DNA from: Chitinophagales bacterium
Lineage (GTDB): Bacteria > Bacteroidota > Bacteroidia > Chitinophagales > CAIODY01
Assembly (NCBI GenBank): GCA_947452995.1
Contig: CANGEV010000007.1
Location: 65,143 to 111,681, forward strand
Length of the DNA stretch: 46,539 bases
Direction of reading: 5' to 3'
The position numbers and the translations under genes are program-made. A model generated the notes under the pieces. That model had not been told where the DNA came from. It worked only from the letters and a program-made list of their open reading frames with translations, and searched no databases. Shown piece by piece: positions 17,727 to 34,931 of the stretch (positions are counted from its first letter, which is position 1; each line of letters begins with the position of its first letter).

Positions 17727-19049
17727 TTATTTAAATAGGGTAGTAATAAAATAAATCAATGCACCCATAATACCGCTTATTGGAATTGTTAGAACCCATG
17801 CCCACATTAATTTGATGGTAACACCCCATCTAACGGCGGAAATTCTGCGCGTTAATCCAACGCCTACTATCGAGCCAGTAATCGTGTGGGTTGTACTCAC
17901 AGGAATACCTAGCATTTGAGTTAAATAAAGTGTAATTGCTCCAGCTGATTCAGCGGCAACACCTTCAAATGGTGTCACTTTTGTTATCTTAGACCCCATT
18001 GTTTTGATAATTCTCCAACCTCCGGATAAAGTTCCTAAGCCAATTGCAATAAAACAGGCATATTGAATCCAATCAGGAATTGTTGTAATGTCCTTCTTTG
18101 GTTTTAAAGTCGATACTTGCACTAAGGCATTAGCAGGAACCAAAACCAAGGAATCATTGATTTTTACAAACTGCTTTGAACCATCCTTCTTTATTGCCCA
18201 ATCGCTTTTGCTATGCGCTTTGCCTTTGCCATAAATGGCTGTAGAGTTAAAAATAGCATGTTGATGACCAGTGATTACACTGTCTGTAATTCCTCGGATA
18301 GAATCAAAATGAACAACATTAGCTGGTATAGAAACATAGTTCGTATCCATTTTATAAACCGTTTTGATTTCGGTCCAGGTTGGCACTTCTTTATGTTCTT
18401 TTTTTGCACTAGCTGTGAATACCAATAACGCTGCAGCAATTATCCCCATTACCTTTTGAGCATCATTTGAACCGTGGCCAAGACTAAATGCTGCTGAAGA
18501 AACTAACTGTAATCGCTTAAACCATTTATCAGCCCTACCAGGATGAACGCGTTTAAATAAGTGTAAAATTATTATGGAGATCGTATAGGCTAATAGCAAT
18601 CCTATCAAAGGTGCTAAAAAGATGAATGCAATAGTTGTATAGATCTTGGTTAAGTCGGCCAAAACACCCACACCAGCTTTTGCGATAGCTGCCCCTGCAA
18701 AGCCACCGAGTAACGTGTGGGATGATGAGGATGGAATTCCCCAATACCAAGTAATCAAATTCCAAATTATCGCTGCTAAAAGACCAGCCAAAATCACTTC
18801 TAGTGAAATTGCCTCTGTCTTCACAATCTTTGCAATGGAATCTGCAACTTTTAATTCAAATCCAAGCCAGTGATGTTTGGCAAAGAATAAAACAACTGCA
18901 TTAAAAAATGCAGCCCAAGCTACAGCTTGGAATGGGCTCAATACTTTAGTAGAGACAACGGTTGCAATACTGTTTGCAGCATCATGAAATCCGTTAATAT
19001 AGTCGAATACTAAGGCAAGGGCCACTACGACTAATAGTAGTGTCATCAT
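17727..19049 (-). CDS. pit: PiT-family inorganic phosphate transporter with a large soluble insert
   Basis: A 440-residue inner-membrane low-affinity phosphate:cation symporter. The two inverted Pi-binding signatures are visible as GFHDAANSIATVV (20-32) and GHGSNDAQKVMGI (191-203). There are about ten membrane helices. Between the halves, residues about 215-325 form a hydrophilic segment with no predicted helix, longer than the linker of the E. coli PitA type. It is 10 nt downstream of the DUF47 gene, and the pair is a typical pit-DUF47 operon. Confidence 0.93.
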   Translation of the reverse strand: MMTLLLVVVALALVFDYINGFHDAANSIATVVSTKVLSPFQAVAWAAFFNAVVLFFAKHHWLGFELKVADSIAKIVKTEAISLEVILAGLLAAIIWNLITWYWGIPSSSSHTLLGGFAGAAIAKAGVGVLADLTKIYTTIAFIFLAPLIGLLLAYTISIIILHLFKRVHPGRADKWFKRLQLVSSAAFSLGHGSNDAQKVMGIIAAALLVFTASAKKEHKEVPTWTEIKTVYKMDTNYVSIPANVVHFDSIRGITDSVITGHQHAIFNSTAIYGKGKAHSKSDWAIKKDGSKQFVKINDSLVLVPANALVQVSTLKPKKDITTIPDWIQYACFIAIGLGTLSGGWRIIKTMGSKITKVTPFEGVAAESAGAITLYLTQMLGIPVSTTHTITGSIVGVGLTRRISAVRWGVTIKLMWAWVLTIPISGIMGALIYFITTLFK

Positions 19050-19059
19050 TATTATTGAA

Positions 19060-19707
19060 TTAGCTAATTTTAACTAATATACTTTCCAAAACATTGGCAA
19101 CATCTTCAGCCATGTCTGTGGCTGTTTCTAATGCTGAAAGGATTTCTTTTTGCTTGATTAAGTTAATTGCATCCTTTTCATTATCAAACAAGCTAGCTAC
19201 TGCTGTATCATAAATATCATCAGCGTGGTTTTCGATACTATTTATTCTCACACATGCGTCTGTAATATTTCTTATGTTTCTAATGTTCTTTAATTCATTA
19301 ATCGCACGTTGCAATTCAATAGTGCTTTGGTGAATTAATTCTGCTAATTTTATAATGGCAGGGGTGAACTCCGTAACCTTATACATCGCAATTCTTTTAC
19401 TAGCTCCGTGAATATAATCTGCAATTTCATCGATAGATGATGTTAAGCGATGGATATCTTCACGATCAAAAGGAGTTATAAAACTTCCTGATAACTCTAA
19501 ATAAATTTTGTGCGCACACTGATCACATACATGCTCAAGATCTTCAATCTCTTTTTCGAGTTCTTTACGCTTGTTCTGGTCCATTGTGTTCACCAACTCA
19601 TGCATCACTGAGGCAATTTTAACAAGATTAGTTGCTTGATCGTCGAATAGAGGGAAGAACTTACGATCCTTTGGCGCGAAAAATTTAAAAATTGAGTCTA
19701 AGGCCAT
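19060..19707 (-). CDS. DUF47 (PhoU-like) phosphate transport regulator
   Basis: A 215-residue all-helical protein of the PhoU-like DUF47 family, TIGR00153-type. The ExxxD metal-binding pattern is seen in LEHVCDQCAHKI and SSIDEIADYIHGASKRI. These proteins accompany Pit transporters and are thought to modulate them. It is the promoter-proximal gene of the pit operon. The first residues MALDSIFKFFAPKDRKFFPLF are typical of the family. Confidence 0.9.
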   Translation of the reverse strand: MALDSIFKFFAPKDRKFFPLFDDQATNLVKIASVMHELVNTMDQNKRKELEKEIEDLEHVCDQCAHKIYLELSGSFITPFDREDIHRLTSSIDEIADYIHGASKRIAMYKVTEFTPAIIKLAELIHQSTIELQRAINELKNIRNIRNITDACVRINSIENHADDIYDTAVASLFDNEKDAINLIKQKEILSALETATDMAEDVANVLESILVKIS

Positions 19708-19761: not shown

Positions 19762-19991
19762 GGCGAGAGTTAACTGGTAACGTTATGGTAATATTGTATT
19801 TTGTTTTTAATGTAGGTTTTATTGAGAATTATTATGAATAATAAAATGAAAAGTGCGCTAGATTTAATCTATTACCCTCACGAAACAAAAAAATAAATAA
19901 TTTTTACTTCCTTGAAACCTTTACGCAGAAAGACTTTTAAGCATTTCGGTCATTTTTTGTTTAAAAAAAGTAAAAATAAAAGCGAATAAAG

Positions 19992-20022
19992 TTTGATTAT
20001 TGAATTATTAGTTCTACTTTTG
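19992..20022 (+). promoter_or_regulatory. Main promoter of the ribosomal protein operon
   Basis: TTTG at 19992-19995, exactly 19 nt, then TACTTTTG at 20015-20022. This is a perfect match to the Bacteroidota TTTG-N19-TAnnTTTG consensus. An AT-rich tract precedes it. It is by far the best candidate to drive the 29-gene operon. Confidence 0.8.
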
Positions 20023-20031
20023 CGGTCCCAA

Positions 20032-20059
20032 GTTAGAGATAGGAACGTTCTATTCTAAC
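20032..20059 (+). promoter_or_regulatory. Leader hairpin of the ribosomal operon
   Basis: GTTAGA (20032-20037) pairs with TCTAAC (20054-20059), and ATAG (20039-20042) pairs with CTAT (20050-20053). One G is bulged and the loop is GAACGTT. It begins within about 10 nt of the promoter -7 box, so it would form the 5' end of the mRNA. A role in mRNA stability or feedback control is an inference. Confidence 0.55.
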
Positions 20060-20099
20060 CGCTGGTTTCAAAATTAATTGAATTATTAACCTTATATCG

Positions 20100-20717
20100 A
20101 TGAAAGCAATCCTTGGGAAAAAGATTGGCATGACCAGCATTTTTGATGCAGCTGGTAAAAACATCGCCTGCACGGTAATCGAAGCCGGTCCATGTGTAGT
20201 TACACAGGTAAAAACCATTGAATCTGATGGCTATAACGCTCTTCAGTTAAGTTTCGGTAACAAAACCGAAAAATCAACTCCGGCCCCTTTGAAAGGTCAC
20301 TTTTCAAAATCAAACACAGCTCCTAAATCTTATACACGCGAAATTCGCAACGCTTCTATGGACAAAAACCTAGGAGATGTTGTGGATGCTACTTTATTTG
20401 CTGAAGGCGAAAAAGTAAATGTCGTGTCTACAGCTAAAGGACGCGGTTTCCAAGGTGTTGTTAAACGCCATGGATTTAGTGGGGTAGGTCAAGCTACACA
20501 CGGTCAACATGATCGTAGTCGTGCACCGGGTTCATTAGGTAACTCCTCTGATGCTAGCCGTGTAATGAAAGGTATGCGTATGGCTGGTCAAATGGGTAAC
20601 AATCGCGTTAAGATGAAAAACTTGAAGATTGTTAAAATATTCGCTGAGCAAAACTTGGTAGTTGTTAGTGGTTGTATCCCTGGCGCTCCTGGTCAGTATG
20701 TAATTATTGAAAATTAA
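20100..20717 (+). CDS. rplC: 50S ribosomal protein L3
   Basis: A 205-residue protein of the 50S subunit. The L3 signature is [13 protein letters not shown] (114-126), and the peptidyl-transferase-facing loop is [15 protein letters not shown] (about 134-148). It is the first gene of the operon here; rpsJ, which usually precedes it, is absent upstream. The ATG at 20100 follows a leader of about 70 nt with no Shine-Dalgarno motif. Confidence 0.98.
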
Positions 20718-20746: not shown

Positions 20747-21373
20747 ATGAAACTAGATATTTTAAATAAAGAAGGTAAAGCAACCGGATCTCAAATTGAT
20801 TTGAACGAATCAGTTTTTGGAATCGAACCAAATGAGCACGTTGTTTATTTGAACGTTAAGCATTACTTAGCTAATCAACGCCAAGGTACGCATAGCACAT
20901 TGACTCGTTCATTTGTGAGTGGTTCTACAAGAAAGTTGCATAAACAAAAAGGTACTGGTGGTAGCCGTAAAGGTTCTATCAAGAATATTCAGTATCCTGG
21001 TGGTCCTCGTGCATTCGGTCCTGAACCGCGTGACTATGGCTTCAAGTTAAATGCTAAAATGAAAGATCTTGCTAAGCGCAGTATCTTGAGTGCTAAAATC
21101 AAAGCTAACAGCATCCGTGTTGTAGAAGATTTTGATTTGGATACTCCTAAAACAAAACAATACTTGAATTTCATTGCTAACATGAATATCGGTACTGCTA
21201 AATCTTTAGTTGTTACTGCAGATGTTAAAAAGAATATGTTGTTAGGTTCTCGTAACGTTCAACGTTCAGGTATGGTAACTGCAGATAATATGAATGCGTA
21301 TCAATTGATTAATGCTGATACATTAATTCTTTCTGTAAGCGCAGTGAAACGTATTGAAGAAATTCTTAAATAA
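20747..21373 (+). CDS. rplD: 50S ribosomal protein L4
   Basis: A 208-residue protein of the L4/L1e family. The extended loop reaching into the exit tunnel includes KQKGTGGSRKGS (67-78) and GGPRAFGPEPRDY (85-97). In Proteobacteria L4 represses its own operon through the S10 leader. Whether it recognises the leader hairpin at 20032-20059 here is unknown. The gene is 29 nt after rplC. Confidence 0.98.
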   Translation: MKLDILNKEGKATGSQIDLNESVFGIEPNEHVVYLNVKHYLANQRQGTHSTLTRSFVSGSTRKLHKQKGTGGSRKGSIKNIQYPGGPRAFGPEPRDYGFKLNAKMKDLAKRSILSAKIKANSIRVVEDFDLDTPKTKQYLNFIANMNIGTAKSLVVTADVKKNMLLGSRNVQRSGMVTADNMNAYQLINADTLILSVSAVKRIEEILK

Positions 21374-21394
21374 GCCCGTCAAAACAAAGCGATC

Positions 21395-21685
21395 ATGGAA
21401 ATCATTATCCGCCCGATAGTAACCGAAAAATTAACCCAGTTGACTGAAAAGCAACATAAATACGGGTTTGTCGTGAATCCTCGCGCCAATAAATTACAGA
21501 TTAAATCTGCAATTGAAAAAATGTACAACGTAACAGTTGAAGCAGTTAACACTGCAACAATGCCTGGTAAATCTATCCAACGTTATACTAAGAAAGGTTT
21601 CACAAAAGGTAGCAAGCCTTCATATAAGAAAGCTTATGTGACTGTTAGTGCAAACGATACAATCGATTTTTACGGTAACGTTTAA
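21395..21685 (+). CDS. rplW: 50S ribosomal protein L23
   Basis: A 96-residue L23 protein beginning MEIIIRPIVTEKLTQL, with the family pattern IRPxVTEK and the strand YGFVVNPRANKLQIK. It lies at the exit of the peptide tunnel and is the docking point for trigger factor and SRP. It sits in the conserved position between rplD and rplB. Confidence 0.97.
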   Translation: MEIIIRPIVTEKLTQLTEKQHKYGFVVNPRANKLQIKSAIEKMYNVTVEAVNTATMPGKSIQRYTKKGFTKGSKPSYKKAYVTVSANDTIDFYGNV

Positions 21686-21720
21686 TTCATTAATTAACTA
21701 ATTCGAAAACGAGCTAAATC

Positions 21721-22563
21721 ATGGCTTTAAAGAAATACAAACCAATCACGGCAGGAACTCGTCACCGCATAGGTAATGCTTATGCTGAAGTTACTGTAAC
21801 TAAGTCTAATCCAGAAAAGTCTTTGACTGAGTATATTTCTGGAACAGGTGGACGTAACGCTCAAGGCCGTCGTAGCATGCGCTATATCGGTGGAGGTCAT
21901 AAAAAATTGTATCGTATCATCGATTTCAAACGTAATAAGTTTGATATTCCTGCTACTGTAAAAACAGTTGAGTATGATCCAAATCGTTCAGCTTTCATCG
22001 CTTTGTTGAATTATGCTGATGGTGAAAAACGTTATATCATCGCTCCTGATGGTATTAAAGTTGGTCAAACTGTGATGAGTGGTACCAAAGCTACTCCTGA
22101 GGTTGGTAATGCAATGAAGATTAAAGATATTCCATTAGGAACTATCATTCACAATATCGAATTACGTCCTGGTCAAGGTGGCGCAATCGCTCGCTCTGCT
22201 GGTACTTACGCTCAATTGGCTGCGAAGGATGTTCGTTATGCAACGATCAAATTACCTTCTGGTGAAACTCGTATGATTTTGATGGAATGTTTCGCTACTA
22301 TTGGCTCAACATCAAATCCTGATCACAACTTGCAACAATTGGGTAAAGCTGGTCGTAGCCGTTGGAGAGGTATTCGTCCTCGTAACCGTGCGGTAGCGAT
22401 GAACCCAGTAGATCACCCGATGGGTGGTGGTGAAGGTAAAGCTTCAGGTGGTCAGCCTCGTACACGCCGTGGTATCAAATCAAGAGGTTTGAAAACACGT
22501 GCTCCGAAGAATCCAAACAATCGTTTTATCATCACGCGTCGTAACGGTCGCAAATTGTCTTAA
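21721..22563 (+). CDS. rplB: 50S ribosomal protein L2
   Basis: A 280-residue L2, one of the core proteins around the peptidyl transferase centre. The signature [13 protein letters not shown] contains H232, the counterpart of the conserved histidine near residue 229 in E. coli. The basic C-terminal tail ([20 protein letters not shown]) is intact. Length is a few residues above typical, with no obvious insertion domain. Confidence 0.98.
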
Positions 22564-22590
22564 TCCCTTTAAACTAAGAAGCACAATAAT

Positions 22591-22854
22591 ATGGCTCGCT
22601 CAATTAAAAAAGGTCCTTACGTAGATCATAACCTTCAAGGTAAACTAGATAAGATGAATGACGGTTCAACTAAAAGAGCTGTTATCAAAACTTGGAGTCG
22701 TCGTAGTATGATCACTCCAGATTTCGTTGGTCATACCTTGGCAGTTCACAATGGTAACAAATTCATTCCTGTTTATGTAGGGGAGAATATGGTAGGCCAC
22801 AAATTAGGTGAATTCGCTCCAACGCGTACATTCAAAGGACACTCAGCTAAATAA
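22591..22854 (+). CDS. rpsS: 30S ribosomal protein S19
   Basis: An 87-residue S19 with the family start [15 protein letters not shown] and the motifs [16 protein letters not shown] and [16 protein letters not shown]. It binds 16S rRNA in the head of the 30S subunit with S13. It is in the expected rplB-rpsS-rplV order. Confidence 0.98.
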
Positions 22855-22885
22855 TAATAATCCTTAAAGTCATAAAATAGACCAA

Positions 22886-23245
22886 ATGGAAGCAATAGCA
22901 AGATTAAGGAATCATCCAACTTCTACCCGCAAGATGCGCTTAATGGCAGATCTTATCCGCGGTAAGCAAGTAGAACAAGCTTTAGGCATTTTGCAATTTA
23001 CCAAGAAACATAACTCTACACCACTTTATAAGTTGTTGTTGAGTGCTGTTGACAATTGGAAGCAAAAAAATCCAGGTAGCCGTCCTGAAGATAGCAACTT
23101 GGTTGTTAAAACGATTATGGTAGACCAAGGTGTTACTATCCGTCGTTATACAAACGCACCGCAAGGACGTATGTATCGTATCCGTAAGCGTAGTAACCAT
23201 GTTACTCTCGTTGTGGATTCAAAAGTAGAAAACGTTAAAGCATAA
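22886..23245 (+). CDS. rplV: 50S ribosomal protein L22
   Basis: A 119-residue L22. The segments TSTRKMRLMADLIRGKQVEQA and IRRYTNAPQGRMYRIRKRSNH are diagnostic; the second contains the beta hairpin that lines the exit tunnel and affects macrolide response. The start MEAIARLRNHP is shorter than in Proteobacteria, as is usual in Bacteroidota. Confidence 0.97.
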   Translation: MEAIARLRNHPTSTRKMRLMADLIRGKQVEQALGILQFTKKHNSTPLYKLLLSAVDNWKQKNPGSRPEDSNLVVKTIMVDQGVTIRRYTNAPQGRMYRIRKRSNHVTLVVDSKVENVKA

Positions 23246-23270
23246 TTATCAACATTACAAATAAACGATA

Positions 23271-24023
23271 ATGGGTCAAAAAGCCAATCCGATAGGAAAC
23301 CGTTTAGGAATTGTTCGCGGCTGGGAATCTAGCTGGTTCGGTAACAAGGCCGACTTTGCTGGAAAATTGTTGGAAGACGATAAAATCCGCAAATATCTTA
23401 AAGCGCGTATTAACAAAGGAGGAATCTCTAAAATGGTTATCGAGCGTACTTTGAAGCGCTTGATTATTACTATCCATACTTCTCGTCCTGGTATTATTAT
23501 CGGTAAAGAAGGTAAGGAGGTAGATCGCATCAAAGAAGAGTTGAACAAACTTACAGGTAAAGACGTTCAAATCAACATCGTTGAAATTCGTCGTCCTGAA
23601 TTGGATGCTGCTATTATCGCTGACACAATCGCTCGTCAAATCGAGAGCCGTATCAACTTCAAACGTGCAATGAAAATGGCTATGCAGTCATCTATGCGTA
23701 TGGGAGCTGAAGGTATTAAGATCAAATGTGGTGGTCGTTTAGGTGGAGCAGAGATCGCTCGTACTGAAGAAGTTAAGCAAGGTCGTGTACCATTACATAC
23801 TTTCCGTGCAGATATCGATTATGCTCACGCTGAAGCGTTGACTGTATATGGTATCATCGGTATCAAAGTTTGGGTTTGTCGCGGTGAAGTTTTTGGAAAA
23901 CGTGACTTGAACATGAACTTCGGTACTAAAGCAGACGGTAACAACGCGAATGAAACTCGCGGAGATCGTCGCGATGACCGCCGCGGAGGTGATAGAAGAG
24001 GTGGAGGCCGCAACCGCAACTAA
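23271..24023 (+). CDS. rpsC: 30S ribosomal protein S3
   Basis: A 250-residue S3 with the N-terminal [14 protein letters not shown] start, a KH domain whose GxxG loop is GKEG (78-81), and the C-terminal S3 domain ([21 protein letters not shown]). It guards the mRNA entry tunnel. The last 25 residues are a low-complexity arginine/glycine/aspartate tail beyond the usual S3 core. Confidence 0.98.
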
Positions 24024-24061
24024 TTAATTTAGCAACTGATAACACGAAATACATTTAGACA

Positions 24062-24481
24062 ATGTTACAGCCCAAAAAAGTAAAATACCGCAAACAACAG
24101 CGCGGAATGATGAAAGGAAACGCTAAGCGTGGAGCAACCGTTTCTTTTGGATCTTTCGGTTTGAAAGCATTAGAAGAGTGCTGGATGTCAAGCCGTCAAA
24201 TTGAAGCAGCTCGTATCGCTTTAACCCGTCATATGAAACGTGAAGGTTCTGTTTGGATCCGCGTTTTCCCTGATAAACCAGTAACGAAGAAGCCTGCAGA
24301 GGTACGTATGGGTAAGGGTAAAGGTAATCCAGAAGAATGGGCAGCTGTAGTAAAACCTGGACGTATTCTTTTCGAAGCGGACGGAGTTCCTTTGAAAGTT
24401 GCTCAAGAAGCATTATCTTTGGCAGCCCAAAAGTTACCTATTGCAACTAAATTCGTAATTCGTCACGATTTCGCTGAATAA
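24062..24481 (+). CDS. rplP: 50S ribosomal protein L16
   Basis: A 139-residue L16 starting [15 protein letters not shown]. The segment [20 protein letters not shown] matches the A-site-facing region, including the arginine that is hydroxylated in E. coli. It is in the conserved rpsC-rplP-rpmC order. Confidence 0.98.
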
Positions 24482-24493
24482 AAATTTAAGACT

Positions 24494-24685
24494 ATGTCAA
24501 AGGAAAAAGAAAACTATAACAACTACTCTGCAGAAGAGTTGACCAATAAAATCGCTGAAGAGAAGGCTATGTTGGGTAAAATGAAATTTAACCACAAAGT
24601 TACTCCAATCGAAAATCCAATGAGCATTCGCCAAATCCGTCGCAATATTGCGCGTATGGCAACTGCTTTGAGCGCTAAAAATTAA
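24494..24685 (+). CDS. rpmC: 50S ribosomal protein L29
   Basis: A 63-residue two-helix protein of the L29 family, with [21 protein letters not shown] and the C-terminal [15 protein letters not shown]. It sits near the exit tunnel beside L23. Its position between rplP and rpsQ is conserved. Confidence 0.95.
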
Positions 24686-24711
24686 TACTCAAAACGACCT
24701 CACTTATTAAC

Positions 24712-24972
24712 ATGACAGAAGTTCGTAACCTAAGAAAAACACGTATCGGTATAGTATCCAGCAACAAAATGGATAAAACGATTACCGTTACTGTTGAGCG
24801 TAAAGTAAAACACGCTAAATATGGTAAGTTCTTGAAACAATCCAAGAAATTCCATGCACACGACGAGAAAGGGGAGTGCAATATCGGTGATACCGTTAAA
24901 ATCATGGAGACTCGTCCTTTGAGTAAAACTAAGCGCTGGCGTTTGGTTGAAATTTTGGAAAGAGCAAAATAA
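24712..24972 (+). CDS. rpsQ: 30S ribosomal protein S17
   Basis: An 86-residue OB-fold protein with the S17 signature [20 protein letters not shown] and the N-terminal [18 protein letters not shown]. It is an early binder of 16S rRNA during 30S assembly. It ends the S10-type block and runs into the spc-type block with only 28 nt between. Confidence 0.97.
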
Positions 24973-25000
24973 TTTTTGACCCTAAAACATTTGATAGAAA

Positions 25001-25369
25001 ATGATACAAACAGAAAGCCGTTTACGCGTAGCCGACAATAGTGGTGCTAAAGAAGTTCTTTGCATCCGCGTTTTAGGAAACAGTGGTCAGCGTTATGCTA
25101 CTATTGGTGACAAAATTGTTGTTACCGTAAAAGATGCATTACCTAACGGTGGTGTTAAGAAAGGTACAGTTTCAAAAGCTGTAATCGTTCGTACTTCTTT
25201 TAAATTCCGTCGTAAAGATGGTTCTTATATCTTCTTTGATGACAATGCTGTAGTATTGTTAAATACACAAGACGAACCTCGCGGTACGCGTATCTTCGGG
25301 CCAGTAGCTCGTGAACTCCGTGAGAAAAACTATATGAAAATTGTTTCATTAGCCCCTGAGGTTCTTTAA
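25001..25369 (+). CDS. rplN: 50S ribosomal protein L14
   Basis: A 122-residue L14 starting [18 protein letters not shown]. The family core [17 protein letters not shown] and the end [16 protein letters not shown] are intact. It lies at the subunit interface and forms intersubunit bridges with 16S rRNA. It is the first gene of the spc-type block, with no separate promoter seen. Confidence 0.98.
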
Positions 25370-25380
25370 ATCTTAAGATC

Positions 25381-25704
25381 ATGACAAGATTCGCAACGAA
25401 ATTACACGTAAAAAAAGGAGATATGGTTAAGGTTATCTCCGGCGACAATAAAGGTAAATCAGGACGTATCGTTTCTGTTTTCCCTAAAACGTCTCGCGCA
25501 ATTGTAGAAGGTTTGAATATGGTTTCTCGCCATACTAAGCCCAATGCGCAAAATCCTCAAGGTGCTATCATTAAAAAAGAAGCTCCAATCCATATAAGTA
25601 ATTTGATGGTAATGTCTGGTAACACGCCAAGTCGTATCGGACGTAAAGTAGAAGGTGACAAGATAGTTCGTGTTGCTAAAAAGACTGGTGAAGTTTTAAA
25701 ATAA
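25381..25704 (+). CDS. rplX: 50S ribosomal protein L24
   Basis: A 107-residue L24 with an N-terminal KOW motif (KKGDMVKVISGDNKGKSGRI) and the HTKPNAQNPQGAI segment. It helps start 50S assembly by binding domain I of 23S rRNA. It is 11 nt after rplN. Confidence 0.97.
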   Translation: MTRFATKLHVKKGDMVKVISGDNKGKSGRIVSVFPKTSRAIVEGLNMVSRHTKPNAQNPQGAIIKKEAPIHISNLMVMSGNTPSRIGRKVEGDKIVRVAKKTGEVLK

Positions 25705-25723
25705 TTAAACAGTAGAGAATACA

Positions 25724-26275
25724 ATGACATACATTCCTCGTTTAAAAGAGAAGTACAAAAAAGAAGTTGTTCCTGCTTTAAAGGAAAAACATTCTTATAA
25801 AACAGTTATGCAGGTTCCTCGTATTACGAAGATCTCCATTAACCAAGGTTTAGGCCGTATTGCAGGTGATAAAAAATTGATGGAATTGGCAATTGAAGAA
25901 TTGTCAACTATCACTGGTCAGCGTGCAGTAACTTCTAAATCACGTAAAGATATCTCTAACTTCAAATTACGTTCTGGTATGCCAGTAGGCGCTCGCGTAA
26001 CTTTACGTGGAGACAAAATGTATGAGTTTTTAGACCGTTTAATCGCTGTTGCACTTCCTCGTGTACGTGATTTCAAAGGTATAAATGATAAAGCATTTGA
26101 TGGTCGTGGTAACTATACATTAGGTGTTACTGAACAAATTATCTTCCCGGAGATTGATATTGATAAAGTATCAAAAATCAACGGTATGGATATTACCATC
26201 GTTACCACTGCCACAAACGATGCAGAAGCTAAAAGCTTGTTGCAAGAAATGGGCATGCCTTTCAAAAAAGATTAA
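25724..26275 (+). CDS. rplE: 50S ribosomal protein L5
   Basis: A 183-residue L5 that binds 5S rRNA and contacts the P-site tRNA. Family segments include [36 protein letters not shown] and [18 protein letters not shown]. Length is typical. It is in the conserved rplX-rplE-rpsN order. Confidence 0.98.
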
Positions 26276-26306
26276 TTCACTAAGATAAAAACACAAAACC
26301 GATAGG

Positions 26307-26576
26307 ATGGCAAAAAAATCTGTTATCGCTCGTCAACGCAAAAGAGAACATTTGGTTGAATTATACGCTGAACGTCGTAAAGCTTTGAAAGAAGCTGGAG
26401 ATTACGAGGCTTTAGATAAACTACCTCGTAACTCAGCAAAAGTACGTCTACGTAATCGTTGTCAATTGACTGGTCGTCCACGTGCTTATAACCGCTTATT
26501 CGGTTTGTCTCGTAACAAACTACGTGAATTAGCAATGAATGGTAAAATACCTGGAGTTCGTAAAGCTTCTTGGTAA
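26307..26576 (+). CDS. rpsN: 30S ribosomal protein S14, zinc-free type
   Basis: An 89-residue S14 of the long form, ending [21 protein letters not shown]. It has a single cysteine (in [15 protein letters not shown]), so it lacks the CxxC-CxxC zinc ribbon of the short form. It binds the 30S head late in assembly. Confidence 0.97.
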
Positions 26577-26605
26577 TACTTTAAATTTAAATACATTAAT
26601 TAGCA

Positions 26606-27007
26606 ATGATAACCGATCCAATTTCAGATTTTTTGACACGTTTGCGTAATGCTCAAATGGCGCGTCATCGTGTTGTAGATATCCCTGCTTCCAATCTTAA
26701 AAAGAAGCTTACGGAGATTCTATACCAGAAAGGTTATATCCACAAATACACCTTCCAGGAAACTCCTAACAAACAAGGTGTAATCAAGATCGCTTTGAAA
26801 TATGATGCGGTAACTAAGTTACCAGCTATTCGTGAAATGCTTCGCGTGAGCCGTCCAGGTCTACGTAAGTATAGCGGAATGCATGATATCAAACGCGTTA
26901 AAAATGGTTTGGGTATTGCCATCGTTTCAACTTCTAAAGGTATAATGACAGATAAAGAAGCTCGTAACTTGAATGTAGGCGGCGAAGTATTGTGTCATAT
27001 TTTCTAA
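26606..27007 (+). CDS. rpsH: 30S ribosomal protein S8
   Basis: A 133-residue S8 with the start MITDPISDFLTRLRNAQ and the C-terminal signature GIAIVSTSKGIMTDKEAR. It binds helix 21 of 16S rRNA. In E. coli S8 represses this block by binding the rplE start region; a matching structure was not identified here. Confidence 0.98.
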   Translation: MITDPISDFLTRLRNAQMARHRVVDIPASNLKKKLTEILYQKGYIHKYTFQETPNKQGVIKIALKYDAVTKLPAIREMLRVSRPGLRKYSGMHDIKRVKNGLGIAIVSTSKGIMTDKEARNLNVGGEVLCHIF

Positions 27008-27027
27008 TAGTTCATTAAAACATTTTT

Positions 27028-27582
27028 ATGTCTCGTATAGGTAAAGCTCCAATCACTCTTCCAAAAGGCGTAACAGTTTCTGTTGCTCCTAATAATGAAG
27101 TGACCGTTAAAGGTCCTAAAGGGGAGTTGTCTCGTAAGATTGACAGCGATATTCAATTAATAGTATCTGGTGATACTCTTACAGTAGAACGTCCAACGAA
27201 TCAAAAACGCCACAAAGCCTTACATGGTTTATACCGTGCTTTGCTAGCGAATATGGTTACAGGTGTTGCTGAAGGTTATACTAAGAAATTGGAATTAGTA
27301 GGTGTGGGTTTCAAAGCTAGCAATACAGGTCAAAATCTTGATATCGCAGTTGGTTACTCTCACAACATTATCATCCAATTACCAAAAGAAATTAAGGTAG
27401 CTACAGCTACTGAAAAAGGATCTAACCCAATCGTAACTTTAGAAAGTCATGATAAAGAATTGTTAGGTGCTATTTCTGCAAAGATTCGTTCATTACGTAA
27501 ACCTGAACCATACAAAGGTAAAGGTATCAAATACGTTGGCGAAGTATTGCGTCGTAAAGCTGGTAAAACTGCAGGTAAATAA
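27028..27582 (+). CDS. rplF: 50S ribosomal protein L6
   Basis: A 184-residue L6 with two related alpha/beta domains. The family end is RKPEPYKGKGIKYVGEVLRRKAG, and the start MSRIGKAPITLPKGV is typical. It lies near the factor-binding site. A hairpin follows it in the spacer before rplR. Confidence 0.98.
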   Translation: MSRIGKAPITLPKGVTVSVAPNNEVTVKGPKGELSRKIDSDIQLIVSGDTLTVERPTNQKRHKALHGLYRALLANMVTGVAEGYTKKLELVGVGFKASNTGQNLDIAVGYSHNIIIQLPKEIKVATATEKGSNPIVTLESHDKELLGAISAKIRSLRKPEPYKGKGIKYVGEVLRRKAGKTAGK

Positions 27583-27590
27583 TACACAAT

Positions 27591-27611
27591 CGTTGCATCC
27601 GGGATGTAACG
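27591..27611 (+). promoter_or_regulatory. Intercistronic hairpin between rplF and rplR
   Basis: CGTTGCATC (27591-27599) pairs with GATGTAACG (27603-27611), nine pairs with one G-U, around the loop CGG. No U tract follows, so it is not a standard terminator. It ends 16 nt before the rplR ATG. Confidence 0.55.
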
Positions 27612-27627
27612 GCAAACAAAATAGAAA

Positions 27628-27978
27628 ATGGTTAATCATAACATCACTCGTAGAGAAAAAATTAAAACGCGTAGCCGTTTAACATTACATGGAACATCTG
27701 AGCGTCCGCGTTTATGTGTGTTCCGTAGTAATTCTGAAATTTATGTTCAGTTGATTAATGACGATACGCATGTAGTTATTGCTGCATCTTCTTCTCTAAA
27801 GAAAGGTTTTCCTAAAGTTACTAAGACTGAAAAGTCTAAATTAGTAGGTAAGGAAATAGCAGAAATCGCCAAAGCTGCAGGTATCACTAACGTAGTATTT
27901 GATCGTAATGGATTCCTTTATCATGGTCGTGTAAAAGCTGTTGCAGATGCAGCTCGTGAAGCAGGACTTAATTTCTAA
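27628..27978 (+). CDS. rplR: 50S ribosomal protein L18
   Basis: A 116-residue L18 that binds 5S rRNA with L5. Family segments are RLTLHGTSERPRLCVFRSN and the end VFDRNGFLYHGRVKAVADAA. A hairpin lies directly before it, the most structured spacer in this part of the operon. Confidence 0.97.
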   Translation: MVNHNITRREKIKTRSRLTLHGTSERPRLCVFRSNSEIYVQLINDDTHVVIAASSSLKKGFPKVTKTEKSKLVGKEIAEIAKAAGITNVVFDRNGFLYHGRVKAVADAAREAGLNF

Positions 27979-28000
27979 TTAAAAACATTGAAACAATCAT

Positions 28001-28516
28001 ATGTCTGAAAATGTACAACGCGTAAAAGCTAGCGAACTAGAACTAAAAGAAAAACTAGTTAACGTTGGTCGTGTTACTAAGGTAACTAAAGGTGGTCGTA
28101 CCTTCACTTTCTCTGCTTTAGTAGTAGTAGGTGATGGTAACGGAATCGTAGGACACGGCTTAGGTAAAGCGCGTGAAGTTTCTGAAGCTATTACAAAGGC
28201 TACTGAAGATGCTAAGAAAAACTTAGTTAAGGTGCCTATCATGAAAGGGACAGTTCCTCATGAGCAAATGGGTAAATTTGGCGCAGGTCGCGTTCGTATT
28301 GCCCCAGCTTCTCATGGTACTGGTGTAATCGCCGGTGGTGCTATGCGTGCGGTATTAGAAAGTGCTGGTGTTACTGACGTATTGGCAAAATCATTGGGTT
28401 CTTCTAATCCGCATAACGTTGTTAAAGCAACAATCAATGCATTAGAAAGCTTACGTGATCCAATGACAATTGGTCATCACCGTTCTATGAGTATGAAACG
28501 CGTTTTCAACGGTTAA
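28001..28516 (+). CDS. rpsE: 30S ribosomal protein S5
   Basis: A 171-residue S5 with the double-stranded RNA-binding-like domain ([20 protein letters not shown] and [11 protein letters not shown]) and the C-terminal S5 fold ([20 protein letters not shown]). It contributes to decoding accuracy. Its position between rplR and rpmD is conserved. Confidence 0.98.
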
Positions 28517-28542
28517 TCTAAAAAGATCAAAGGTATAACAAG

Positions 28543-28722
28543 ATGGCTAAGATTAAAATAACATACGTAAACAGTGCTATCGATCGTAAATACGATCAGA
28601 AAGCTACTATTAAGGCTTTAGGTTTGAATAAACTTAACTCATGTGTTGAACACGAAGCAACTCCCCAAATTTTGGGTATGGTTCGCAAAGTGAATCATTT
28701 GGTTAAAGTTGAAAATGCTTAA
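28543..28722 (+). CDS. rpmD: 50S ribosomal protein L30
   Basis: A short gene of 59 codons. The protein starts MAKIKITYVNSAIDRK and contains ATIKALGLNKLNS and QILGMVRKVNHLVKVE, the L30 pattern (Lys-Ala-Leu-Gly-Leu then GMV...V.HLV). It fits exactly between rpsE and rplO, where rpmD is expected. Confidence 0.96.
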   Translation: MAKIKITYVNSAIDRKYDQKATIKALGLNKLNSCVEHEATPQILGMVRKVNHLVKVENA

Positions 28723-28747
28723 TTGAAAAAAAACAAAAGATCTAATT

Positions 28748-29197
28748 ATGAATTTACATAATTTACGTCCTGCTAAAGGATCAGTAAAATCTGAGAAACG
28801 TATCGGTCGCGGTGAAGGATCAGGTCATGGTGGGACTGCTACGAAAGGTAACAAAGGTGCTCAATCACGTGCTGGTTACAAATCTAAGCGTGGTCATGAA
28901 GGTGGTCAAACACCCATTCAACGTCGTTTACCAAAACGTGGTTTCAAATCTTTGAACCGTGTTGAGTATATGGTTTTGAATTTGAGTGACCTTACACATT
29001 ACGCAACTAAATTTAGTACTGATACTGTTGATGTAGAATTATTACGTCAGCATCGTCTAATCTCCAAAGATGCTAAGTTGAAAATCTTGGCTAATGGGGC
29101 ATTGGCTTCAAAAGTTAATGTGAAAGCGCATGCTTTCAGTGAAAAGGCAAAAACTGCAGTTGAAGCTTTAGGTGGAACTGCTGAAATTCTGAAGTAA
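28748..29197 (+). CDS. rplO: 50S ribosomal protein L15
   Basis: A 149-residue L15 with the glycine-rich N-terminal tail GRGEGSGHGGTATKGNKGAQ and the core QTPIQRRLPKRGFKS. The C-terminal globular part VNVKAHAFSEKAKTAVEALGG is complete. It lies 17 nt before secY, the usual order. Confidence 0.98.
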   Translation: MNLHNLRPAKGSVKSEKRIGRGEGSGHGGTATKGNKGAQSRAGYKSKRGHEGGQTPIQRRLPKRGFKSLNRVEYMVLNLSDLTHYATKFSTDTVDVELLRQHRLISKDAKLKILANGALASKVNVKAHAFSEKAKTAVEALGGTAEILK

Positions 29198-29214
29198 TTT
29201 TTTATCTTTAGTTC

Positions 29215-30561
29215 ATGAAAAGATTCTTAAACACGATTCGTAATATCTGGGCAATTAAAGAATTGCGCGATAAAATAGCATTAACATTATTGTTAATTGC
29301 TATTTATCGTTTTGGTTCATACGTTGTATTACCAGGTATTAATCCTAATATGTTGACTAAATTAGGTGCAAACGCTGGCAGTGGTTTGTTAGGTTTGTTC
29401 AACACATTCGTAGGAGGTTCATTCTCTCGCGCTTCCATCTTTGCATTGGGTATCATGCCTTATATTTCTGCTTCAATTGCTTTGCAGTTGTTAGGAATGG
29501 CAGTACCTTATTTTCAGAGATTACAACGTGATGGTGAAAGTGGTCGTCGTAAATTGAATCAATATACACGTTTTGCTACCATTGTGATAACTGCATTACA
29601 ATCAATAGCTTATGTTACGTATCTTAACAATCAAGTTGAAGCAGGTGGTATCACTATCGCACCTGGATTATTTTGGTTCTCTACCATTGTAACACTTACT
29701 GCAGGTACCATGTTTGCTCTTTGGTTAGGTGAGCGTATCACAGATAAAGGGATAGGTAACGGTGTTTCTTTATTAATCATGGTAGGTATCATGGCTCGTT
29801 TCCCTCATGCAATATGGAGTGAATTGGATAGCAAAGTTCAACGTGCAGGAGGAGGAATGATCATGTTCTTGGTAGAAATGATTTTCCTAATTTTTGTTCT
29901 TTTCTTCATTATTTTATTAGTTCAAGGAACTCGTAAAATTCCTATTCAATACGCAAAACGTATTATTGGTAACAAACAATATGGTGGTGTTCGTCAGTAT
30001 TTGCCATTGAAAGTTAATGCTGCTGGTGTTATGCCAATCATCTTTGCTCAAGCAATTATGTTCGTACCTAGTTTGTTCTTACAAATGTTCCCTAACAATA
30101 GTTTTGTTCAATACATTTCGAATTATGAAGGTTTTGGATATAATTTTCTTTTCGCTTTGTTAGTAGTAACGTTCACATATTTTTACACTGCTTTGATAGT
30201 TAATCCAGTTCAAATGGCAGATGAAATGAAGCGTAATAACGGCTTTATTCCGGGGGTTAAGCCAGGTAAAAAGACTGCAGAATATATTGACAGTATTATT
30301 TCACGTATTACTTTACCAGGTTCTGTATTCTTAGCTTTAGTTGCTATCATGCCAGCTTTTGCTCGTGTAATAGGTATTAACTCTCAGTTTGCGAATTTCT
30401 TTGGAGGTACTTCTATATTAATTATGGTGGGAACAATTCTAGATACTTTGCAACAAGTTGAAAGTCATTTGTTAAGTCGTCATTATGATGGATTGATGAA
30501 GAATGGTCGTATCAAAGGTCGTCAAGTTGCTAATTCTGCAATTGCTGTACCACAAGGATAA
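29215..30561 (+). CDS. secY: Preprotein translocase subunit SecY
   Basis: A 448-residue integral membrane protein, the channel of the SecYEG translocon. Ten hydrophobic segments can be traced. Signatures include YRFGSYVVLPGINP in the first helix and plug area, GIMPYISASIALQLL, RITDKGIGNGVSLLIM and NNGFIPGVKPGKKTAEYI. It is cotranscribed with the ribosomal proteins as in most bacteria. No adk gene separates it from map. Confidence 0.98.
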   Translation: MKRFLNTIRNIWAIKELRDKIALTLLLIAIYRFGSYVVLPGINPNMLTKLGANAGSGLLGLFNTFVGGSFSRASIFALGIMPYISASIALQLLGMAVPYFQRLQRDGESGRRKLNQYTRFATIVITALQSIAYVTYLNNQVEAGGITIAPGLFWFSTIVTLTAGTMFALWLGERITDKGIGNGVSLLIMVGIMARFPHAIWSELDSKVQRAGGGMIMFLVEMIFLIFVLFFIILLVQGTRKIPIQYAKRIIGNKQYGGVRQYLPLKVNAAGVMPIIFAQAIMFVPSLFLQMFPNNSFVQYISNYEGFGYNFLFALLVVTFTYFYTALIVNPVQMADEMKRNNGFIPGVKPGKKTAEYIDSIISRITLPGSVFLALVAIMPAFARVIGINSQFANFFGGTSILIMVGTILDTLQQVESHLLSRHYDGLMKNGRIKGRQVANSAIAVPQG

Positions 30562-30572
30562 TTACGTTAGAA

Positions 30573-31394
30573 ATGAGTGAAGTAACGTATAAGACAGTAG
30601 AGGAGATTGAATTAATAAAAAAAAGTTCTTTGTTAGTCAGTGCTGCTTTAGCTGAAGTAGCTAAAGTAATAGCTCCAGGTGTAACAACGTTGTATTTAGA
30701 CAAAGTTGCTGACGAGTATATTACAAAAAATGGTGGATATCCTATTTTTAAAGGATATCAAGTATACGATCAATCGTACCCATTTGCTACTTGTATTAGT
30801 GTAAATGAAGCTGTTGTACATGGGTTGCCAAATGATTATGTGATACAGGACGGAGATATAATATCTGTTGATATCGGAGTTAAGATGAATGACTTTATTG
30901 GTGATTCTGCTTATACCTTTGCGGTCGGAAATGTGAAACAGGATATTCTTGATTTATTAAGTGTTACAAAGCAAAGTCTTTACCTCGGTATTGCACAAGC
31001 TAAAGTTAACAATAGAGTAGGAGATATTGGCTTTGCAGTTCAAAGTCATTGTGAAGGAAATGGTTATAGTGTTGTAACAGAGTTAGTTGGTCATGGTGTG
31101 GGTAGAGAGTTACACGAAGATCCTCAAATACCTAATTATGGTAGAAGAGGAGCAGGGAAGAAATTACAAGAGGGATTGGTTATAGCAATAGAGCCGATGA
31201 TTAATTTAGGGAAGAAAGAATTAGGAGTGGCGGAAGATGGTTGGACATATATTACGAAGGACGGGAAGGCGTCAGCGCATTATGAACATACTATTGCCTT
31301 AACAAAGTCTGGTCCGATAATACTAAGTGACTTTAGTATAGTAGAACAGGCGGAGTTATCCAATAAAAATTTAAATACAAGTTATTTTGCATAA
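30573..31394 (+). CDS. map: Methionine aminopeptidase, type I
   Basis: A 273-residue enzyme that removes the initiator methionine from nascent proteins. The five metal ligands are D100, D111, H174, E207 and E238, in the segments [28 protein letters not shown] and YEHTIAL. It has no N-terminal zinc-finger extension. Its TAA stop overlaps the infA ATG by one base (TAATG), which suggests coupled translation. Confidence 0.97.
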
Positions 31395-31612
31395 TGGCAA
31401 AACAAGATGTAATAACACAAGACGGTACAATCGAAGAAGCGAATAGCAATGCGATGTTCAAAGTGAAGTTGGAAAATGGTCATTCCATTTTAGCAACGAT
31501 CTCTGGCAAAATGCGCATGCACTATATTCGTATTCTTCCAGGGGATAGAGTTCAGGTGGAAATGAGCCCGTACGATTTAACAAGAGGACGTATCATTTTC
31601 CGTTATAAATAA
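31394..31612 (+). CDS. infA: Translation initiation factor IF-1
   Basis: A 72-residue OB-fold protein with [37 protein letters not shown] and [18 protein letters not shown], all standard. It binds the A site of the 30S subunit during initiation. It overlaps the map stop by one base. Confidence 0.98.
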
Positions 31613-31645
31613 ACTAACAATTAAAGAAGCATAAATTACTCAATC

Positions 31646-31762
31646 ATGAGAGTTAGAGCATCCATCAAAAAAAGAAGTGAAGACTGCAAAATTGTCCGCA
31701 GAAAGGGCAAATTGTTCATCATTAACAAGAAGAATCCTCGTTTCAAACAACGTCAGGGATAA
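31646..31762 (+). CDS. rpmJ: 50S ribosomal protein L36, one-cysteine type
   Basis: A 38-codon gene. The protein begins [19 protein letters not shown] and ends [13 protein letters not shown]. Only C14 is present, so the CxxC-C-H zinc ribbon is absent. This is the C-minus form seen in Bacteroidota. It lies between infA and rpsM as expected. Confidence 0.96.
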
Positions 31763-31798
31763 TCGATTTTAAATTTCTACAAACTAACATAACAAAAC

Positions 31799-32179
31799 AT
31801 GGCCCGTATTTCAGGTGTAGACTTACCTAAAAACAAAATCGGCGAAGTAGGATTATCCTATTTGTTCGGTGTTGGTCGCAGCGGTGGCCGCAAAATTCTT
31901 TTGCAAGCCGGCATCGACCCATCTAAAAAGGTAAAAGATTGGAATGATGACGAATTGAATAAAATTCGTACGATTATCAACAACGATTGGAAAGTGGAAG
32001 GCGCTCTACGTAGCGAAATCCAGTTGAACATTAAGCGTTTGATGGACATTGGTTGCTACCGTGGTATCCGTCATCGTAAAGGTTTGCCTTTGCGCGGACA
32101 ACGTACTCGTACTAACTCACGTACTCGTAAGGGTAAACGTAAGACAGTTGCGGGTAAGAAAAAGGCACCTACAAAATAA
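31799..32179 (+). CDS. rpsM: 30S ribosomal protein S13
   Basis: A 126-residue S13 with the start [19 protein letters not shown] and the arginine-rich signature [20 protein letters not shown]. It forms bridges to the 50S subunit and contacts P-site tRNA. It is followed by an unusually long spacer of 93 nt before rpsK. Confidence 0.98.
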
Positions 32180-32193
32180 AATTAGTTCAGGTC

Positions 32194-32211
32194 AAAATAA
32201 TGTATTATTTT
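32194..32211. repeat. Perfect inverted repeat in the rpsM-rpsK spacer
   Basis: AAAATAAT and ATTATTTT are perfect inverted copies separated by GT. It lies within the longest gene spacer of the superoperon. It could form a weak AU hairpin or a protein-binding site. Confidence 0.45.
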
Positions 32212-32272
32212 CGCGCGGCTTAAGGTTGCTCGGGATACATTTAAACCGTGCTTAAAATTAAATTAAAAGACA

Positions 32273-32680
32273 ATGGCAAAAACCTCATCTGCAGGCGCAG
32301 GGAAGAAAGTTACCAAAAAGAAAACAGTTAAAACTGATGCTGAAGGTGTTGCACACATTCAAGCTTCATTCAATAACTTGATTGTATCCATGACAAACAA
32401 AACTGGACAGGTGATCTCTTGGTCATCAGCTGGTAAAATGGGTTTCCGTGGATCAAAGAAAAACACACCTTACGCAGCACAAATGGCTGCCTCTGACGCT
32501 GCTAAGGTAGCGCATGATGCAGGAATGCGTAAATGTGAAGTGTTTGTAAAGGGACCAGGATCAGGACGTGAGTCTGCGATTCGTGCCATTTCTCAAACAG
32601 GGATTGAAGTTACGATTATTCGTGACGTGACTCCTATGCCTCACAACGGATGCCGTCCTCCGAAAGCAAGACGCGTATAA
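32273..32680 (+). CDS. rpsK: 30S ribosomal protein S11
   Basis: A 135-residue S11 with a short lysine-rich N-terminal extension (about 1-25). The core is [19 protein letters not shown] and the end is [16 protein letters not shown]. It lies on the platform near the mRNA exit. It is followed by rpsD. Confidence 0.98.
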
Positions 32681-32711
32681 TTTTTATTAATTTAAACCAA
32701 CCCTATAAAAA

Positions 32712-33317
32712 ATGGCTAGATACACAGGACCAGCTTCCAAAATTGCACGTAATTTTGGTGAACCTATTTTCGGTGCCGATAAAGCCTTCGACCGCAAGAA
32801 TTATCCGAGCGGTATGCATGGTATGGCACGTAAGAAAAAGCAGCAGTCTGACTATGCTTTGCAATTGAAAGAAAAACAAAAAGCCAAATATACTTATGGC
32901 ATTTTGGAGCGTCAATTCCGCAAAATATTTGTCGAAGCTGCGCGTAAACATGGAGTAACAGGTGAAAACTTGTTGAAATTGTTAGAATCACGTTTAGATA
33001 ACACAGTTTTCCGTTTAGGTATTGCACCTACACGTCGTGCTGCACGTCAATTGGTTAGTCATAACCACATTGAAGTTAACGGTGTTAATACGAATTCACC
33101 TTCTTTTACTCTACGTAAAGGAGATGTAGTAACTGTTACGTTGAAAGCTCGTGAAATGGAGGTTATTCAAACCGCCTTGCGTAATAAAGGAAAGAATTTT
33201 CCTTGGTTGCAATGGAATGAAGATAAAATGGAAGGTACTTTCATCGCAATGCCTGAAAGAGATCAGATTCCTGAGAATATCAAGGAACAACTTATCGTTG
33301 AACTTTACTCTAAGTAA
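32712..33317 (+). CDS. rpsD: 30S ribosomal protein S4
   Basis: A 201-residue S4, a primary binder that starts 30S assembly. The S4 RNA-binding domain (about 93-155) includes [20 protein letters not shown] and SHNHIEVNG. The N-terminal region has no zinc-type cysteines. In E. coli S4 represses this block; a control site cannot be identified for certain, but two structured spacers flank the gene (32180-32272 and 33318-33394). Confidence 0.98.
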
Positions 33318-33332
33318 TCCATTGATTAATTA

Positions 33333-33358
33333 ATTTGCCTCGGACAGTCCGAACAAAT
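33333..33358 (+). promoter_or_regulatory. Hairpin between rpsD and rpoA
   Basis: ATTTG (33333-33337) pairs with CAAAT (33354-33358). Above an internal loop, CGGA (33341-33344) pairs with TCCG (33348-33351) around CAG. No U tract follows. It lies 37 nt before the rpoA ATG and may be a regulatory or processing element. Confidence 0.5.
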
Positions 33359-33394
33359 CTTAATCATTTTCCTTCACTTTCAATTAAATATAAA

Positions 33395-34387
33395 ATGGCT
33401 TTATTAAATTTCGTAAAACCAGATAAAATTATCCTAAACAAGGCAAACGACTTCGAAGGTACTTTCGAATTCCGTCCACTAGAGCCTGGTTTCGGAGTAA
33501 CAATAGGTAATGCTTTACGTCGCGTATTGTTATCTTCATTAGAAGGATATGCAATTACCAACATTAAAATTAGTGGTGTTGAGCATGAATTCTCTACGAT
33601 TAAAGGTGTAATGGAAGACGTTACTGAAATCGTTTTGAATTTGAAGCAAGTGCGTTTGAAAAAGGTAATTGATACAGACTTAAGTTCTGAAAAAATTATT
33701 TTAAGCATCAAAGGTAAAGAAGAATTACGTGCTGAAGCAATTGGTAAGCATACCACTAGTTTCATGGTAATGAATCCAGACTTGTTGTTGTGCCGCATGG
33801 ATCCTGCAACTAATTTGAATATCGAATTAACGATTGAAAATGGTCGTGGTTATGTTCCTGCAGAAGATAATAAAAACAAAGAAGGTGCTTTAGGTACTAT
33901 CGCGATTGATTCAATTCATACTCCAATCAAAAATGTAAAATACGCTATTGAAAATACGCGTGTTGAACAAAAGACTGATTATGAAAAATTGATTTTAGAT
34001 GTAACTACAGATGGCACTATTCATCCTGAAGAAGCTGTTAAAGATGCTGCTAAAATTTTGATTCAACATTTAATGTTGATCAGTGACGAAAAAATCACAT
34101 TTGATGATTTCAGTGAGTCTGCTCACGAAGTAGTTGATGATCATGTATTGCACATGAGAAAACTATTGAAAACTCCACTTGAAGATTTAGATTTAAGTGT
34201 TCGTGCTTATAATTGCTTAAAAACTGCAAAGATTAATAACTTAAGTGAGTTGGTTAAGTTTGATCTTAATGATTTGTTGAAATTCCGTAATTTCGGTAAG
34301 AAGTCATTGACTGAAATCGAAGCGATGGTACACGAAAAAGGTTTACACTTCGGTATGGACCTCAGCAAATACAAATTAGAAGATTAA
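33395..34387 (+). CDS. rpoA: RNA polymerase alpha subunit
   Basis: A 330-residue alpha subunit. The N-terminal domain for assembly contains [20 protein letters not shown], and the C-terminal domain for UP-element and activator contact contains [20 protein letters not shown]. The frame runs back to a TTG at 33335, but that would cover the hairpin. The ATG at 33395 ([12 protein letters not shown]) matches the family start and was chosen. Confidence 0.98.
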
Positions 34388-34424
34388 TTACTTACCTAAA
34401 AAAAAGACTAGCGTCAAATAAATC

Positions 34425-34931
34425 ATGAGACACGGAAGAAAAGTAAACCAGTTAAGTCGTACAAAAGCACATCGCGATGCTCTTTTGGCCAATATGACCA
34501 TTTCGCTTATCAAACACAAGCGTATGATCACTACGGTAGCTAAAGCTAAAGCTTTACGCCGTTATGTTGAGCCTTTATTAACACGTGCTAAGGAAGATAA
34601 CACACACAATCGTCGTATTGTATTCTCTTATTTGCAAGATAAACATGCAATCACTGAATTGTTTGGTGGTGTAGCTGAAAAAATTGCAAGTCGTCCTGGA
34701 GGATATACTCGTATCATTAAAGTCGGTTTCCGTCCTGGTGACAGTGCTGATATGGCGATGATTGAGTTGGTTGACTTCAACACAACTTATCAAAGTAAGG
34801 CTCAGCAAAAATCAGGTGCTACAGCAGCTCCTGCTAAGAAGACACGTCGTGCTGGCGGTGCTCGTAAAAAGGCAACTAAAGACGAAGGCGAAGCTCCTGC
34901 GAGCGAAGCTACAGATACTTCAGCTGAATAA
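34425..34931 (+). CDS. rplQ: 50S ribosomal protein L17 with C-terminal extension
   Basis: A 168-residue protein. Residues about 1-120 are the L17 core ([20 protein letters not shown] and [16 protein letters not shown]). About 45 extra residues form an alanine/lysine/glutamate-rich tail that changes from basic to acidic. Such tails are common in Bacteroidota L17. It is the last gene of the superoperon and is followed by a strong terminator. Confidence 0.98.

Follow-up and report, generated by a model that had tools for sequence, protein, structure and literature searches.

The closest described system is the leader of the E. coli S10 operon, in which an operon protein, L4, exerts feedback on the same string of genes that follows the element considered here (PMC10931766). 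The E. coli leader is long, stands in front of rpsJ and works through a terminator as well. An L4 r-leader of Archaeoglobi precedes a regulated string of which rplC is likewise the first gene (PMC7247131, Table 1); it is archaeal, is rated borderline in that study and was compared with our structure through Rfam scans only. In the same phylum, small covarying r-leaders are known for L13, S4, S15 and S16 of Bacteroidia and Flavobacteria, where they serve different genes (PMC7247131). The papers we found give no description of how the largest ribosomal-protein operon of the Bacteroidota is balanced.

The window, a stretch of 46,539 nucleotides from a Chitinophagales bacterium, carries this operon with rplC in first place. 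The features around the start of the operon are listed below, where A1 is an alignment of 22 sequences made with MAFFT, L083 is a sister genome and L085 is a genome of the same family.

19992–20022, plus strand: predicted promoter, TTTG (19992–19995), 19 nt and TACTTTTG (20015–20022), from a pattern match; the same in L083.
20028–20030, plus strand: outer helix, 5' strand CCA (MFE fold; covariation in A1); A20030 is the invariant closing base.
20031, plus strand: single unpaired A, which is A or U in every member of A1.
20032–20059, plus strand: inner stem-loop, arms 20032–20042 (A20037 bulged) and 20050–20059, loop 20043–20049 (compensation at 20038/20054; covariation).
20060–20062, plus strand: right side of the internal loop, CGC, unpaired; neither C varies in A1; CGA in L085.
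20063–20065, plus strand: outer helix, 3' strand UGG, with U20063 invariant (MFE fold; covariation in A1).
20066–20099, plus strand: A+T-rich linker up to the start codon; the same in L083.
20100–20717, plus strand: rplC (ribosomal protein L3), the first gene of the operon (ORF; NCBIfam).
20747–34931, plus strand: the next 28 genes, rplD to rplQ, presumed to be co-transcribed (ORFs; rplD, rplW, map and rplQ by NCBIfam).

The hairpin at 20032–20059 is confirmed, and it forms the central part of a conserved 38-nt RNA element (20028–20065). Our check of GTTAGAGATAGGAACGTTCTATTCTAAC bears out the ten stem pairs, the single bulge and the loop GAACGTT described in the initial annotation. The bulge is better assigned to A20037 than to G20038, since L083 has a C–G pair at 20038/20054, the compensatory counterpart of the G–U pair in the window. 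The MFE fold of the window also includes an outer helix, CCA/UGG, in which C20028-C20029-A20030 pair with U20063-G20064-G20065, and an internal loop with A20031 on the left and C20060-G20061-C20062 on the right. It is this outer portion that relatives preserve. In outline, an A–U pair closes a short outer helix, which the internal loop separates from the inner stem; the left side of this loop is one unpaired base, A or U, and its right side is CGC, replaced by CUC or CGA in relatives. The folding energy of the hairpin is moderately better than chance (z −1.8; nine of 200 shuffles were equally good) and is weak evidence taken alone; the significance of the hairpin derives from comparison.

The hairpin begins 10 nt past a perfect Bacteroidota-type promoter, TTTG-N19-TACTTTTG, in agreement with the initial annotation, and the TTTG-type consensus is that of this phylum (PMC7366714). 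The pattern is matched three times in the window against 0.46 expected by chance, so that a match by itself says little; the transcript is predicted to start where the element begins. No terminator-like site occurs on this strand from the promoter and element to rplC, and no Shine–Dalgarno-like sequence was seen in the linker at 20066–20099. The count of ORFs agrees with the proposed transcript of 29 genes, from rplC at 20100 to rplQ at 34931, co-transcription being presumed. NCBIfam confirms L3, L4 (rplD being second in the operon), L23, methionyl aminopeptidase and L17; the names of the remaining genes assume the standard gene order. rpsJ, which had been described as missing, is indeed absent from the operon, yet it is present in the genome on a different contig, behind fusA. 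On the minus strand, 17727–19707 encodes phosphate-transporter-like and TIGR00153-like proteins, both below the NCBIfam cut-offs and divergent from the ribosomal operon.

The helices of the element show strong covariation. From A1, RNAalifold returned unaided exactly the nine proposed pairs, and two-sided changes occur at eight of them. Four columns are invariant, namely the closing A, both C of the CNC and the U. Many members of A1 were chosen with a descriptor that includes pairing, which inflates the paired percentage in that alignment. The covariation score of A1 is 0.831 against 0.270 when shuffled (none of 500 shuffles was as high), and sliding the strands gave a maximum of 0.297. A separate set of 19 longer Chitinophagaceae leaders scored 0.572 against 0.250 for its shuffles. 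Between the window and L083 four of 46 positions differ: two make up the compensatory change from G–U to C–G at 20038/20054, one replaces A by U at 20031, which is unpaired and admits either base, and one, at 20025, sits 5' of the element. L085, which stood outside the descriptor-based choice, takes on the same architecture when folded by energy alone, GGUUUA-A-stem-CGA-UGAACC. The compensatory changes among relatives upstream of rplC, for which the initial annotation had proposed to look, are clear in A1, in the pair with L083 and in the second set of 19, and covariation backs the secondary structure, a property by which ribosomal-protein leaders are recognized.

The survey comprised 80 rplC loci from named genomes together with further relatives and gave 201 upstream regions, 197 of them distinct. 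Loci without usable upstream sequence (L001, L045 and L084) and those whose start codon was not recognized by the script (L122, L148, L149, L152, L157, L160 and L181) were left out. The descriptor specified the window fold (A–U-closed outer helix, one A/U, inner stem and CGC-U); under strict scoring it fitted 44 of the 197 regions, against 0–2 fits apiece for ten dinucleotide shuffles. Roughly 13 of those 44 matches are look-alikes within rpsJ. With CUC or CGC admitted and the rpsJ look-alikes removed, 62 of the 201 regions fitted and 57 were retained as members. The five removed by judgement were L041, L066, L099, L105 and L134, of which L105 nevertheless shows a three-pair version by eye and is included in the count for family f20 given below. 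The 57 members contain a few near-identical pairs (for example L017/L109 and L051/L127). L103 and L156 joined the alignments by eye, and only L103 was aligned, in A2, which was misaligned and not used. A less circular selection by sequence only (C[GT]CT[AG] 12–45 nt 5' of the start codon) yielded 42 regions; the hairpin forms in 28 of these, against 28 of 1653 other NNNT positions serving as controls.

Of the 37 genomes from three family groups of the order that offer a usable region, 30 carry the element 5' of rplC: two of three in the window's own family (f1), 15 of 17 in f8 and 13 of 17 in f20. The third f1 genome is L085, with its CGA variant. Two of 86 genomes in the other 16 families of the order carry the element, and both were judged to be chance matches. 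Among the named records, members belong to Ferruginibacter, Chitinophaga, Flavihumibacter, Flavipsychrobacter and Taibaiella. In the window genome, model R1 has a single strong site, at 20.8 bits (E 0.025), which is the rplC leader; the next site scores 14.5 bits. Across 149 genomes of the order its 15 best sites all lie directly before rplC; most of these sequences had helped to build R1, so the result speaks for uniqueness rather than discovery, and the window genome was missed there under stricter filters. R1 sites elsewhere than rplC have E values of 0.0017 and above, about the chance level over 149 genomes. Outside the order, seven of 295 genomes of the class gave sites with E no higher than 0.05, a number below the chance expectation, and none of these loci encodes rplC. 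The element is consistently found 5' of a ribosomal-protein gene, as are leaders of this class.

In family f3 a look-alike occurs in the coding sequence at the 3' end of rpsJ, CTCA-T-CATCC..GGATG-CGC-TGAG (L042, L088, L091–L096, L098, L099, L138 and L211, with one C–G to U–A change in L211). Most f3 genomes have it, but it is broken in L112, L114 and L144 and was not found in L087. We considered it as a moved leader and rejected it, treating the likeness as probable chance together with shared ancestry.

The fold, its covariation and its conserved loop nucleotides are thus found at a single kind of site, before rplC. Position, covariation and conserved loop bases match those of ribosomal-protein leaders, and on these grounds we consider it probable that the element is a cis-acting leader of this kind, through which an operon protein, most likely L3, would repress translation. 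L3 in excess over free 23S rRNA would bind the hairpin, putatively at the internal loop, where A/U stands opposite CGC and is closed by the invariant A–U pair. The bound protein would impede loading of the 30S subunit at the nearby A+T-rich rplC start region; translation of rplC would drop and the later genes would follow by coupling. Interference with 30S loading appears to be the likeliest mode, since no terminator-like site is present and the phylum is not reliant on Shine–Dalgarno pairing (PMC10931766). The CNC lies 17–27 nt 5' of the start codon in f8 and in several f20 genomes. Among the longer leaders of Chitinophagaceae, the element stands about 110–340 nt before rplC with a second structured block between, a distance for which simple occlusion of the start site would be inadequate unless the intervening structures help.

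The choice of L3 is tentative and follows from the adjacency of rplC, the first cistron, to the element; L4 is possible but rather less probable, with other proteins making up the remainder. The broader alternative, in which the ligand of the same leader is not L3 but L4, following the E. coli example, or some other protein of the cluster, deserves serious consideration. In E. coli these genes are under the control of L4 (PMC10931766), the archaeal leader with rplC first has been assigned to L4 by precedent (PMC7247131, Table 1) and rplD is the second gene of the window operon. Against this, the element stays directly before rplC even where rpsJ has moved away, and L3 and L4 alike fit the present data. 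Should L3 be the ligand, a new ribosomal protein would be added to the autogenous regulators.

Resemblance of the element to rRNA found no significant support in a descriptor scan, a model search or local alignments. The exact descriptor gave only chance-like matches in the genome's own 16S and 23S rRNA. The model search gave a weak match in the own 23S rRNA (4093–4120 of L213, E 1.1, the second best on own rRNA), which we place on the 3' strand of H73; the match is absent from L247 and L249. That strand accounted for 0 of 56 and one of 56 best local alignments (L247 and own 23S, respectively), against six and six of 560 shuffles. A further candidate, GGAUAAGCGCUGAAAGCAUCUAAG in the own 23S rRNA, a region that we take to be H98, was rejected, with one of 56 for the L247 23S (f20) and three of 56 for the own, against 19 and 11 of 560 shuffles. 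By cryo-EM, the H73 3' strand is reported to be capable of an alternative stem-loop in E. coli 50S core particles, with L3 contributing to the native form of H73 (PMC9687910); beside the weak match this is a suggestive coincidence. That L3 binds the leader as an imitation of this alternative stem-loop seems to us doubtful at best. If it were true, leader recognition would be tied to an assembly intermediate and not to the finished ribosome. We know of no earlier L3 feedback RNA in bacteria, and the leader would then be the first.

The initial annotation had tied the hairpin to the mRNA 5' end, as a cap, and to the absence of rpsJ. Neither connection survives comparison: rpsJ lies 5' of the element in 51 of the 57 member loci, a promoter stands directly before it in only two, both of the window's genus, and in L085 the same fold is well inside a longer leader. 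The element is accordingly an rplC leader and neither caps the 5' end nor stands in for an S10 leader that was lost. The proposal of a distinct control element has fared better, the compensatory changes in relatives supporting it as a candidate. Given the position of rpsJ and the restriction of promoter-adjacent copies to the window's genus, the ancestral site was likely between rpsJ and rplC, the leader becoming the 5' end after the operon split. It would represent a case of an internal leader of a polycistronic mRNA turned into a 5' end upon separation of rpsJ and rplC.

The location of rpsJ 5' of the element in 51 of 57 members would also suit a processing site, where RNase cleavage in the hairpin would part the rpsJ message from that of rplC and determine how stable each is relative to the other. 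We regard this as improbable: the element is retained right behind the promoter in the window's genus, where nothing is left to process, and stems that vary freely around a constant loop (A/U opposite CNC) look more like a protein site than a generic cleavage hairpin. A stem-loop shielding the mRNA from decay would agree with the start of the window element at the predicted 5' end; it is very unlikely in view of the two promoter-adjacent copies among 57 and the internal copy in L085. A chance hairpin, compatible with the unremarkable energy (z −1.8), is contradicted by the covariation and enrichment of the element, by its distribution over families and by its uniqueness in the genome, and is scarcely credible.

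Other structures were seen in the relatives. Many Chitinophagaceae rplC leaders have a second, larger conserved structured block 3' of the element, in the last ~130–220 nt before rplC (L003, L017, L026, L029, L040, L070, L089, L100, L105, L106, L110, L130 and others). RNAalifold on 12 sequences gave 32 pairs, 11 with two-sided changes, and the loci scanned gave no Rfam match to this block. rplC loci of the Sphingobacteriaceae type (L004, L018–L021, L030, L035, L039 and L038) have a hairpin of another kind, CACCUUGAACGAAGC..GCUUCGAUGGGUG, some 45 nt 5' of the gene, with two-sided changes at five of 11 pairs in seven sequences. The UUGAA/UG internal loop of this hairpin is similar to the third hairpin of the block in Chitinophagaceae, and the two may be a shared second leader motif. 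In L016 (Chitinophaga silvatica) three Rfam DUF805b matches (1081–1116, 1420–1455 and 1785–1820) fall within 750 bases, far upstream of the rplC region.

Our best reading is that the element is an unreported ribosomal-protein leader before rplC. Rfam 15 at the gathering score has no match in the window, with nothing near threshold at 19900–20200, and none at the leaders of ten plus ten further loci. Table 1 of PMC7247131, with 20 leaders, has no rplC leader of this kind, and none is named in the accessible part of PMC8040213; we found no report of one for Bacteroidota in the open-licence literature. The element offers a small RNA with clear invariant nucleotides before rplC, including in cultivable genera such as Chitinophaga. 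The L13, S4, S15 and S16 leaders of the phylum are comparable, although they precede different genes and the present element has no Rfam match. The E. coli S10 leader differs from it: here rplC is the first gene, rpsJ is 5' of the element or absent, lying elsewhere in the window genome, no intrinsic-terminator-like site follows, and the 38 nt element stands before rplC instead of rpsJ.
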